Source: Aigarchaeota archaeon (lineage in GTDB: Archaea > Thermoproteota > Nitrososphaeria_A > Caldarchaeales > Calditenuaceae). Taken from it: 64,000 nt of DNA. The DNA is taken from assembly GCA_025059745.1 (NCBI GenBank), contig JANXDH010000004.1:173783-237782 (forward strand), in the 5' to 3' direction. This document shows positions 39,801 through 49,592 of this stretch, piece by piece. A program made the position numbers and the translations under genes. Position 1 is the stretch's first letter. The number at the start of each line of letters is the position of its first letter. The notes below the pieces were generated by a model. That model saw only the letters and a program-made list of their open reading frames with translations, was not told the origin of the DNA and did not search any database.

Positions 39801-39968
39801 ATTCTCTCAATAATATCTATTAAAAAGTAAATTATAAACGTTTTTCATATAGATGAAAAATAAACTTTTGTATATAAGTAAAAAAATATAACTACTTTTT
39901 TATACAAAACATGCCATATAAAAAACAACTTTTTTAAGCATTTTAAGCAGCTGTTAGAACGATACTCC
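39801..39968. promoter_or_regulatory. Very AT-rich divergent promoter region with a perfect hairpin
   Basis: About 170 bases of low GC between the membrane-protein and CutA genes, in a genome with GC-rich coding DNA. It holds several TATA-like elements for both directions (for example around 39817-39827 and 39936-39946) and an inverted repeat at 39841-39860, TTTTTCAT/ATGAAAAA around the loop ATAG. No open frame fits. Confidence 0.5.
39841..39860. repeat. Perfect inverted repeat, 8-bp arms
   Basis: TTTTTCAT and ATGAAAAA are exact complements separated by ATAG. The palindrome may be a protein-binding site or an RNA hairpin. It lies upstream of CutA and of the membrane-protein gene. Confidence 0.75.
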
Positions 39969-47179: not shown

Positions 47180-48277
47180 ATGATCCTCTTCTTCTACTTA
47201 GTTACCGTCACTCTAGGTATCTCCCTCTCCTCGACGTATTACCTCGTCCCGGTGTTCATGGAGCAGCTCGGCTACTCGGATACCCTGATAGGGATAATGG
47301 GATCGATAGTCTCGCTGCCCTATCTGATGATAAACCTCCTCGCCAGACACACCATAGGCCGACTGAGGGACAGCAGGGCCATAGCCATAGCCTGCGTCTG
47401 TGCGGCCCTCTCCGCCTCGATCCTCTTGAACTCCGGTGACCTCCTACCGATCCTCATCGCAGAGGTGATGATAGGGGTGGCGACGTCCTTCTACTTCCCG
47501 TTGGGCGAGATAATGATATCGGGGATAAGGGACGAGGTGAAGAGGAGGAGGGCCTTCGGGCTCTTCGGCACGTCTTGGACCTCTGGGTTCATGCTCGGCC
47601 CCGCTCTCTCGGGTATAGCTATCAATAGCGTCGGTGCCCAAGCCTCGTTCTACGTGCCGTTAGTCGCCTCACTCACCTCCCTACCCCTCTCGTTCCTCCA
47701 GAACCTACCTTTAGAGAAGCAGTTTCCCACCTCAACGTCAGGCGGGAGGGGACTCATAACACCGGCCCACCTTGCCGTGGCCCTCTACACCATGGCCCTC
47801 TCAACGATCGTCATGGCCTTCGCGGGGCTGGCCGCGGGCAGGGGAGTGTCGCCAACGCTACTCGCTTTGGCCTACTCGGTCTACGGGTTGTCGAGGATGG
47901 TCGCCTTCCTCTCCCTCCGGAACCTGCCCTTCTTTGGGACACAGATGGGCGCAACGACCGCGGCACTCATAACGTCGTTCGCGCTCCTCTCGCTCACCCT
48001 CTCAGAGGACTACCTATACCCGGTGATATTCGCGGCGATCGGTGCCTCAGCGACGCTCTACGTCTCTGCGACGTTCCTCTCCATGCTGGGTTCTTTCGGG
48101 AGAGACGCTCCTTCCGCGGTCGGGAGGTTCGAGTCGTGCGTGTCTATAGGGTTTCTGATAGGGCCAGGGGTGTCCGGTGCAATATCTGACAACATAGGGT
48201 TCACGGAGATGCTGGTGACTAACGGGCTGCTCGCGCTATCAGCCGGAGTCCTGAGCGCTAAGAGGTCCCTACGATAA
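47180..48277 (+). CDS. Major facilitator superfamily transporter, second copy
   Basis: A 365-residue transporter with about eleven to twelve hydrophobic segments. It begins ILFFYLVTVTLGISLSSTYYLVPVF and has an MFS-like RHTIGRLRDSR loop. A Ser/Gly-rich central loop (LEKQFPTSTSGGRG) separates the halves. It is probably co-transcribed with the class V aminotransferase gene. Sequence does not decide the substrate. The C-terminal end overlaps the convergent AbrB-PhoU gene by nine bases. Confidence 0.83.
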   Translation: MILFFYLVTVTLGISLSSTYYLVPVFMEQLGYSDTLIGIMGSIVSLPYLMINLLARHTIGRLRDSRAIAIACVCAALSASILLNSGDLLPILIAEVMIGVATSFYFPLGEIMISGIRDEVKRRRAFGLFGTSWTSGFMLGPALSGIAINSVGAQASFYVPLVASLTSLPLSFLQNLPLEKQFPTSTSGGRGLITPAHLAVALYTMALSTIVMAFAGLAAGRGVSPTLLALAYSVYGLSRMVAFLSLRNLPFFGTQMGATTAALITSFALLSLTLSEDYLYPVIFAAIGASATLYVSATFLSMLGSFGRDAPSAVGRFESCVSIGFLIGPGVSGAISDNIGFTEMLVTNGLLALSAGVLSAKRSLR

Positions 48278-49315
48278 GTTCTCGAAGCTGCATATCTCTG
48301 AGGGCCTCTTGACGAACTTGTTAATGGCCACCTCGGATATGATCTTACAGCCGTTTAGAACATCAGTTATCCTGCTTAGTACGACCCTGACCGAGACGGC
48401 CGCATCGCTGTCTTTGATCTTCTCGAGCCCCATCACCTCGAACTGCCTTATACGCTCCATTTCTTTCTTCAACTCATCGAATACCTCGCTCGCGAGCTTG
48501 AAATCTACGGAGATGAAGGAGTTGACGGCCCTACCGAAGATGTGGACGACGTTGTCGATTATGCTGAGAAGCTGTCTAGAGTTTGCGGATTTGGAGAGGC
48601 TCCCCTTCTCTCCGAGCAGGAAGACCTCCTTGCTGATGACCAGCGCGTGGTCGCCTATCTCCTCTAGGACCTTAGCGACGAGCCTGTAACCGGACGCCTC
48701 GGTGTATGATCCGATGCCTAGCGACTTGGCCAGGCTTGGGAACCTCAGGACTGTGAGTACCTGCCTCACGGCCAGGAAGTATAACTCGTCGAGTTTCTTC
48801 TCCATCGACGCGACCTCACCTACTTTCTCCGGCATCGACTCGAGCAGAGCGTCGATGGAGGCGGTGAGCATGGACGCACAAAGGACCTGCATCCGCTTGA
48901 TTAACGCCTCGACCCTGAACTTGGTTGGGTCTATTATCGACTGGACGGTCACAGAGTTCGCGTCCTGACTCATCATCTCAAATCCTGGCAGCTCCTCCAC
49001 TATCGAGTGTATCTCGGAGAGGTGATCGGAGGTCAATCCGTTCATGGAGACTATACGAACTACGTCGTAACCCTGAAGGTAGCACGCGGCGACCAGTTTG
49101 GCCAAAGAGGACGGCGAACCGACCTTGTCGGCGTCTATTATACACGTTATGGGGTTGTAGTTGGGCGTTGCGGTGTCTATCTTCAGCCCCTCCGGGGTCT
49201 CCTCGAGGTAGATCGTATCGCCTACTTTGAGCCCCTTCTGTCTGACCCACTTATGGGGAAGGGTGACGACGAGGCTTGTGCTACCGAGCTTCTGTAGGCG
49301 TCTTACCTCTGGCAT
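48269..49315 (-). CDS. AbrB-domain and PhoU-domain regulator
   Basis: A 348-residue protein. Residues 1-47 form a SpoVT-AbrB DNA-binding domain (LQKLGSTSLVVTLPHKWVRQKGLKVGDTIYLE). A linker is followed by two PhoU-like three-helix bundles (about residues 125-215 and 225-330) with the E-x-x-x-D pattern that binds metals (VASMEKKLDELYFLAVRQV and LEEIGDHALVISKEVF). Such proteins are usual in archaea next to phosphate-uptake genes, but no pst genes are nearby. The ATG at 49315 is followed upstream by a 16-base palindrome at 49321-49336. Confidence 0.9.
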   Translation of the reverse strand: MPEVRRLQKLGSTSLVVTLPHKWVRQKGLKVGDTIYLEETPEGLKIDTATPNYNPITCIIDADKVGSPSSLAKLVAACYLQGYDVVRIVSMNGLTSDHLSEIHSIVEELPGFEMMSQDANSVTVQSIIDPTKFRVEALIKRMQVLCASMLTASIDALLESMPEKVGEVASMEKKLDELYFLAVRQVLTVLRFPSLAKSLGIGSYTEASGYRLVAKVLEEIGDHALVISKEVFLLGEKGSLSKSANSRQLLSIIDNVVHIFGRAVNSFISVDFKLASEVFDELKKEMERIRQFEVMGLEKIKDSDAAVSVRVVLSRITDVLNGCKIISEVAINKFVKRPSEICSFENLS

Positions 49316-49320
49316 ACCAA

Positions 49321-49336
49321 TATATATTAATATATA
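49321..49336. repeat. 16-base perfect palindrome before the AbrB-PhoU gene
   Basis: TATATATTAATATATA is its own reverse complement. It ends five bases from the ATG at 49315, a position where a bound protein could block translation or transcription. An AbrB-domain protein is the product of the adjacent gene, so self-regulation is a reasonable inference. Confidence 0.7.
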
Positions 49337-49350
49337 CTATTTATGTGTAA

Positions 49351-49362
49351 CTCTTATAAGAG
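49351..49362. promoter_or_regulatory. Palindromic TATA-like element, divergent promoter
   Basis: CTCTTATAAGAG is a perfect 12-base palindrome lying about 40 bases from the starts of both divergent genes (49315 minus, 49395 plus). A separate TATA-like CATAAATAG (minus strand, around 49341-49348) is about 29 bases from the minus-strand ATG. The plus-strand gene has a Shine-Dalgarno-like GGTGAT at 49384-49389. Confidence 0.5.
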
Positions 49363-49394
49363 ATATTAATGAAGTATACGCAGGTGATGGATGT

Positions 49395-49592
49395 ATGTCT
49401 CAGCAGATAGCGGCCCAGAAGTTCACCAACAGGAGGAGCTACGCCGCGGGATACAAGTACTGTAGCAGGTGCAGGGTCTATCACCTGACCCTCTCAGTCA
49501 GGTGCCCCTACTGTGGCATACTACTGAGGAACTCACCGAGGAAGAAGAAGCCGGTGGACCCGTCCAAGTACGTCAAGACCCCCATCATATAA
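49395..49592 (+). CDS. Small zinc-ribbon protein
   Basis: A 65-residue basic protein from the ATG at 49395. Residues 23-47 make a zinc ribbon, KYCSRCRVYHLTLSVRCPYCG, with two CxxC pairs. The tail is rich in Lys and Pro (NSPRKKKPVDPSKYV). The Shine-Dalgarno-like GGTGAT at 49384-49389 fits the start. It may bind RNA or rRNA, as do many such archaeal proteins, but the function is unknown. The longer open frame (from 49227) runs antisense to the PhoU gene and is rejected. Confidence 0.75.
   Translation: MSQQIAAQKFTNRRSYAAGYKYCSRCRVYHLTLSVRCPYCGILLRNSPRKKKPVDPSKYVKTPII

Follow-up and report, generated by a model that had tools for sequence, protein, structure and literature searches.

A putative operator between divergent genes for an AbrB-PhoU regulator and a zinc-ribbon protein in an archaeon of the Caldarchaeales

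The stretch of archaeal DNA analysed here (the window, 64 kb) contains two divergently transcribed genes separated by a gap of 79 bp with 25% GC. The start codon of one, encoding a predicted regulator, lies at 49315–49313 on the minus strand, and the ATG of the other, encoding a small zinc-ribbon protein, lies at 49395 on the plus strand. The features of the locus, in window coordinates, are the following.

48269–49315, minus strand: AbrB(MazE)-PhoU regulator P0001, 348 amino acids, assigned from Pfam and an AlphaFold model.
49320–49340, plus strand: operator-like element with two TATATA-type half-sites, this genome's putative version of GTATATGTARTGTATATACTAT, from a half-site model of genus g4 and the similarity of the gap to those of relatives.
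49321–49336, no strand: 16-bp perfect palindrome TATATATTAATATATA, from the sequence and shuffles; exact in 1 of 33 homologous gaps.
49338–49345, minus strand: TATA-like box of the regulator gene, CATAAATA; all 8 gaps of family f1 have a TATTTA(A/T)G box, 26–36 bp from the regulator start.
49351–49362, no strand: 12-bp palindrome CTCTTATAAGAG, from the sequence and shuffles; exact in 1 of 33 gaps.
49353–49360, plus strand: TATA-like box of the zinc-ribbon gene, CTTATAAG; CTTAT is kept in 8 of 8 f1 gaps, 40–47 bp from the zinc-ribbon gene start.
49383–49389, plus strand: Shine-Dalgarno-like GGTGATG of the zinc-ribbon gene, from the sequence; GGTGA is present in 8 of 8 f1 gaps.
49395–49592, plus strand: four-cysteine zinc-ribbon protein P0002, 65 amino acids, belonging to no curated family.

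The regulator appears, from its sequence and predicted structure, to have both of the domains that characterise AbrB(SpoVT)-PhoU fusion regulators. The PhoU domain is clear (PF01895 at residues 139–230, 55.4 bits against a cut-off of 23.5), and the AbrB/MazE-type domain at residues 10–46 is a marginal match (PF04014, 25.5 bits, cut-off 24.7) that is backed by the AlphaFold model. In the model (pLDDT 88.4) an AbrB-like N-terminal part is followed by a middle domain of alpha-beta type and a PhoU bundle, with the PhoU fold at residues 129–337 matching 4q25_B (Z 25.3 over 203 residues, rmsd 2.7); Foldseek aligns the N-terminal domain with 2mrn and 1ub4_C at a probability of 1.00 but with E values of 0.65–0.85. 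P0001 is a predicted DNA-binding transcription regulator, by way of its AbrB domain. The middle domain, at about residues 53–128 between the other two, resembles Alba, SirA and SepF with Z scores of about 7–9, a range in which the structure-comparison tool warns against over-reading.

The zinc-ribbon protein is near-invariant and apparently specific to this class. It is present in 41 of the 44 genomes of the class, and its core is nearly unchanged, with 32 invariant residues among 37 relatives; at an E value of 1e-9 it has matches in 39 of 250 genomes sampled from the phylum, 36 of these in the class and three, all weak, outside it. No Pfam family scores above its cut-off, and with regard to function the matches in the PDB are only weak and the structural model is moderate (pLDDT 71). 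Short zinc-ribbon paralogues are also scattered through G009, G030 and G017 (17, 12 and seven matches respectively), as if spread by mobile elements.

Of the 41 class genomes with the zinc-ribbon gene, 34 carry it next to the regulator gene in divergent orientation, as counted from gene coordinates (and in G043 from coordinates only); the pair is conserved in the manner expected of a divergent autoregulated operator. They are unlinked in G001, G004, G006 and G008 (genus g2) and in G014, G017 and G027 (genus g7). A tree of 60 regulators places all 40 zinc-associated ones together and 18 that are linked to pst genes elsewhere, a split with support of 92/84 for which the tool warns of long branches, and the zinc-associated clade branches along families f1, f4 and f3.

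A sequence-only reading had drawn attention to the two palindromes in the gap, describing the larger as abutting the regulator ATG and the smaller as nearly equidistant from both starts. Both are present, at 49321–49336 and 49351–49362, and the description is close: the 16-mer begins 5 bp past the start codon, and the 12-mer is centred 41.5 bp from the regulator ATG and 38.5 bp from that of the zinc-ribbon gene. When the gap is shuffled 5000 times with its dinucleotides preserved, 1.2% of the shuffles contain a perfect palindrome of at least 16 bp, 12% one of at least 12 bp, and 0.2% both lengths together, while the 64-kb window has three palindromes of at least 16 bp (0.7 expected) and 22 of at least 12 bp (17.5 expected). 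Symmetry with a flexible spacer in the AT-rich first 34 bp of the gap is not significant, being reached by 87 of 1000 shuffles. The 16-mer is unusual, though modestly, and the 12-mer is within chance; by themselves the palindromes are weak evidence. In the 1.17-Mb genome the 16-mer occurs only here, one other place coming within two mismatches of it, and the 21-bp site matches only itself at up to three mismatches; the 12-mer also turns up away from the gap in four further genomes of the class.

We extracted 33 homologous gaps for comparison, and neither exact palindrome is present in any of them except the window's own. Only four of the 33 have any palindrome of at least 12 bp; where the window has the 16-mer, G023 and G019 carry another perfect palindrome of 16 bp, and G013 one of 18 bp. 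Perfect symmetry is not general, in that 15 of 17 gaps tested, including that of the window, do not exceed shuffles at the 5% level, and the symmetry of the operator is suggestive at most. The exact palindromes thus appear to be mostly peculiar to this genome, and the DNA around them is conserved. The sequence-only reading had named a lack of conservation beside homologues as evidence against it, and this is what we find for the exact palindromes (1 of 33), but not for the half-site element beneath the 16-mer.

In g4, the best-sampled genus, the gaps of six genomes share a 41-bp block, GTATATGTARTGTATATAC-TATTTAAG-CATAACG-CTTATCA, with 40 of 41 columns invariant; it adjoins a leader that changes freely, and the four-fold degenerate sites of the regulator gene are only 45% identical in the same genomes. 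Within this genus the intergenic site is conserved beyond neutral expectation. In the block, two half-sites of TATATA type are spaced by about one helical turn, and each gene has a TATA-like box. When the window gap is aligned with the g4 block or with the gap of G002 the score is reached by 0 of 1000 shuffles, as is that of the f4 gaps of G023 and G019; the gap of G039 is intermediate (6 of 1000), and the similarity to f1 of the G029, G021, G018, G030 and G036 gaps (families f3 and f4) is not significant, with 112–354 of 1000 shuffles reaching the score. Other genera have a conserved block of their own at the corresponding place. In several of the genus g6 gaps (L014, L018–L021 and L025), both TATA-like boxes lie between the arms of an inverted repeat, AAAAATTAC...GTAATTTTT, which is possibly a second operator on the side of the zinc-ribbon gene.

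A model of the half-sites, trained on g4 alone and allowing a spacer of 1–3 (a range chosen after the alignments had been viewed), has its best match in the 64-kb window at 49320–49340. A rigid 22-bp g4 model, in contrast, does not place the window site among its top 12 matches over 213.5 kb, because the half-sites are one base closer together here. The best reading of the 16-mer is that it represents the pair of half-sites in a form that has drifted in this genome. In genus g2, where the genes are unlinked, the best match of the rigid g4 model is directly upstream of the zinc-ribbon gene at four of four loci (in searches spanning 180 kb in G001, 12 kb in G004 and about 3 kb each in G006 and G008), and the best match of the half-site model, with a spacer of 0–3, is directly upstream of the regulator gene, again at four of four (about 4 kb each). 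Alignment tests of these genomes taken singly are weak, the scores being reached by 1, 31, 32 and 63 of 1000 shuffles on the zinc-ribbon side and by 1, 27, 103 and 109 on the regulator side.

The specificity of the element for this locus can be judged from an IUPAC two-site pattern, which was built from the g4 and g2 sites and thus partly from sites that it then found. At up to two mismatches it has 12 matches in 12 f1 genomes, of which 11 are at this gap or the zinc-ribbon gene promoter (in 10 genomes) and one is inside an unrelated coding sequence of G002; the backward control pattern has one match. At this threshold the pattern misses both the window's own site and the gap of G002.

TATA-like pentamers in this genome concentrate about 26–43 bp before the ATG (49 genes), and both TATA-like boxes, at 49338–49345 and 49353–49360, fit this zone. 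The element lies between the TATA-like box and the start codon of the regulator gene, which would fit a site overlapping or following the predicted promoter of that gene, and upstream of the box of the zinc-ribbon gene. The suggestion that the 12-mer is a bidirectional TATA is not supported: f1 relatives keep only its CTTAT half, and the regulator gene has a separate TATTTA(A/T)G box in 8 of 8 f1 gaps. The 12-mer is best read as mainly the TATA box of the zinc-ribbon gene, and not as a conserved bidirectional one. A scan for sigma-70 promoters was uninformative, the host being an archaeon. Elsewhere in the window, at 39801–39968, there is a 168-bp divergent gap with 21% GC and four TATAT-type blocks.

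It could be argued that the conserved block is only two strong AT-rich core promoters packed together (TATA, BRE and initiator DNA), with no dedicated regulator and with the palindromes as AT-rich by-products. The window's symmetry is indeed unexceptional given its composition, 12-bp palindromes are within chance, and 12 of 94 sampled intergenic stretches have two or more TATAT-type blocks. We nonetheless regard this explanation as unlikely, since it does not account for a second half-site 11 bp from the first, for invariance that reaches past the TATA boxes, for half-sites on both sides after the genes have separated, or for how rarely the two-site pattern turns up at other places in 12 genomes.

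A second AbrB-PhoU gene of this genome provides a comparison within the family. The pst operon (G000:C3, about 101–105 kb) is divergent from this gene, and divergent pst-linked paralogues occur in many members of the class.

L134 5210–7459 (G000:C3, about 100210–102459): pst operon and divergent AbrB-PhoU paralogue, with a 69-bp gap.

The regulator of the window is not adjacent to pst genes, and the pst-linked paralogue is distinct from it and in a separate clade. The 69-bp gap has three TA-runs of 7–9 bp, one of them beside the start codon of the paralogue. Two or more TA-runs of at least 7 bp, a threshold picked after viewing the data, occur in only two of 95 intergenic stretches (213.5 kb), and both are AbrB-PhoU divergent gaps, namely this one and that of the zinc-ribbon gene; this restriction supports the view that AbrB-PhoU proteins read sites of TATATA type. 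The expectation that the same palindrome would recur before phosphate-uptake genes was not borne out, the 16-mer being unique in the genome and pst having another AbrB-PhoU paralogue as its partner. Nor is there support for the window's regulator governing a broad phosphate regulon, given the unique palindrome, a pattern that is nearly confined to a single locus in 12 genomes, and a pst operon with a paralogue of its own. A third AbrB-PhoU paralogue (L138 8279–9834) is divergent, across an 83-bp gap, from ribosomal genes that we take to be uL22-uS3-like, and this gap contains no TA-runs of at least 7 bp.

The possibility that the site is a genuine operator for some other protein, such as the zinc-ribbon protein or a global regulator that binds TATATA, seems to us improbable. 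The zinc-ribbon protein is basic, with a core that shows greater conservation than the regulator, and it is sequence comparison that links AbrB-PhoU to the site; against this, the pst-linked AbrB-PhoU paralogue has a gap of similar type with no zinc-ribbon neighbour, the regulator retains half-sites where the zinc-ribbon gene lies elsewhere, and the pattern is almost confined to this locus. That the 16-bp perfect palindrome is as such the operator and the 12-bp one a bidirectional TATA common to both genes is very unlikely, for although G023, G019 and G013 have perfect palindromes at the same position and the 12-mer, some 40 bp from both starts, is inside the genome's TATA-like zone, the exact palindromes are in one of 33 gaps, any of at least 12 bp are in only four, and all eight f1 gaps have a separate TATA-like box for the regulator gene.

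We therefore favor the explanation that the 79-bp gap contains an operator controlling both genes and bound by this AbrB-PhoU protein, which we consider fairly probable. Comparison of sequences establishes the element, where it lies and that it is retained near both genes, and the 16-mer is best read as this species' version of the AbrB-PhoU operator, by which the protein would repress its own gene and co-control the zinc-ribbon gene. The original proposal of the 16-mer as the regulator's own operator is thereby retained in a modified form: the exact 16-mer is not the conserved unit, being in one of 33 gaps, but the half-site element beneath it is conserved and lies between the TATA-like box and start codon of the regulator gene, where an autoregulatory operator would sit; the half-sites stay with the regulator in the unlinked genomes, and the gap of the pst paralogue is similar in type.

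The arrangement would be a compact divergent promoter with one operator. Proceeding from the regulator start codon, it would comprise the operator (under the 16-mer), the TATA-like box of the regulator gene on the minus strand, the BRE and TATA-like box of the zinc-ribbon gene on the plus strand (under the 12-mer), and a short leader with the Shine-Dalgarno sequence. Binding of the half-sites would be by the AbrB domain, with the protein acting as a dimer or a larger oligomer. AbrB-PhoU bound downstream of its own TATA box would block its own promoter, whereas the same operator, lying upstream of the BRE and TATA box of the zinc-ribbon gene, would act on that gene too, more likely by activation, and the PhoU domain may tune binding through phosphate, a metal or a partner protein. 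Sites of the TrmB family, according to passages of PMC4158304, repress when downstream of the BRE/TATA and activate when upstream; by analogy autorepression is to be expected here, and activation of the zinc-ribbon gene less surely. That the zinc-ribbon gene is activated by operator-bound AbrB-PhoU, and not co-repressed, is accordingly offered as a tentative suggestion.

A broader generalization is more speculative and, in our estimation, rather unlikely. AbrB-PhoU proteins could be one-component switches in this class, each facing its own divergent target (pst, the class-specific zinc-ribbon gene, and possibly a ribosomal operon) over a short gap and reading there a tandem site with a TATATA core, such that binding at a single site would both repress the regulator gene and activate its target. 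If this were true, the PhoU domain would feed a phosphate- or metal-related signal straight into transcription, without a two-component kinase.

Several known systems resemble parts of this one. The available passages describe TK2157 of Thermococcus kodakarensis as a member of the SpoVT/AbrB family with a PhoU domain (PMC7325993), and PhoU2 (HVO_2374) of Haloferax as a predicted transcriptional regulator adjoining pst (PMC6267482); both are like P0001 in having an N-terminal DNA-binding domain and a PhoU domain, and these passages describe no operator for them. Haloferax PhoU2, in the part of PMC6267482 seen, adjoins the pst operon as this genome's paralogue does, whereas the window's regulator differs from the SpoVT/AbrB-PhoU regulators so described in belonging to a separate clade and in being paired with a zinc-ribbon gene and not with pst. 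The swapped-hairpin proteins MazE, AbrB and Sso7c4, as presented in passages of PMC5222340, share a predicted DNA-binding fold with P0001, in which, as a difference, this fold is joined to a middle domain of alpha-beta type and to PhoU; the locus shows no toxin partner. A parallel for the proposed mode of action is TrmBL1/Tgr and its TGM operator in the Thermococcales, where, by the passages of PMC4158304, the place of a single site relative to the BRE/TATA sets repression or activation. The differences are that TGM is TATCAC-N5-GTGATA, serving a broad sugar regulon through a TrmB-family protein, while here a predicted AbrB-PhoU protein, TATATA half-sites and essentially one locus are involved. 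Among the papers searched, none could be recognised as dealing with this gene pair or with an operator of an AbrB-PhoU regulator. The locus is a well-conserved example of a familiar arrangement in which the regulator and the target are unfamiliar. The comparison yields a specific site, a single predicted target and controls within the family, namely the unlinked genomes and the pst paralogue, so that the role of a PhoU domain fused to a DNA-binding domain becomes directly testable, and it also points to a near-invariant and apparently class-specific zinc-ribbon protein with a dedicated regulator of its own.
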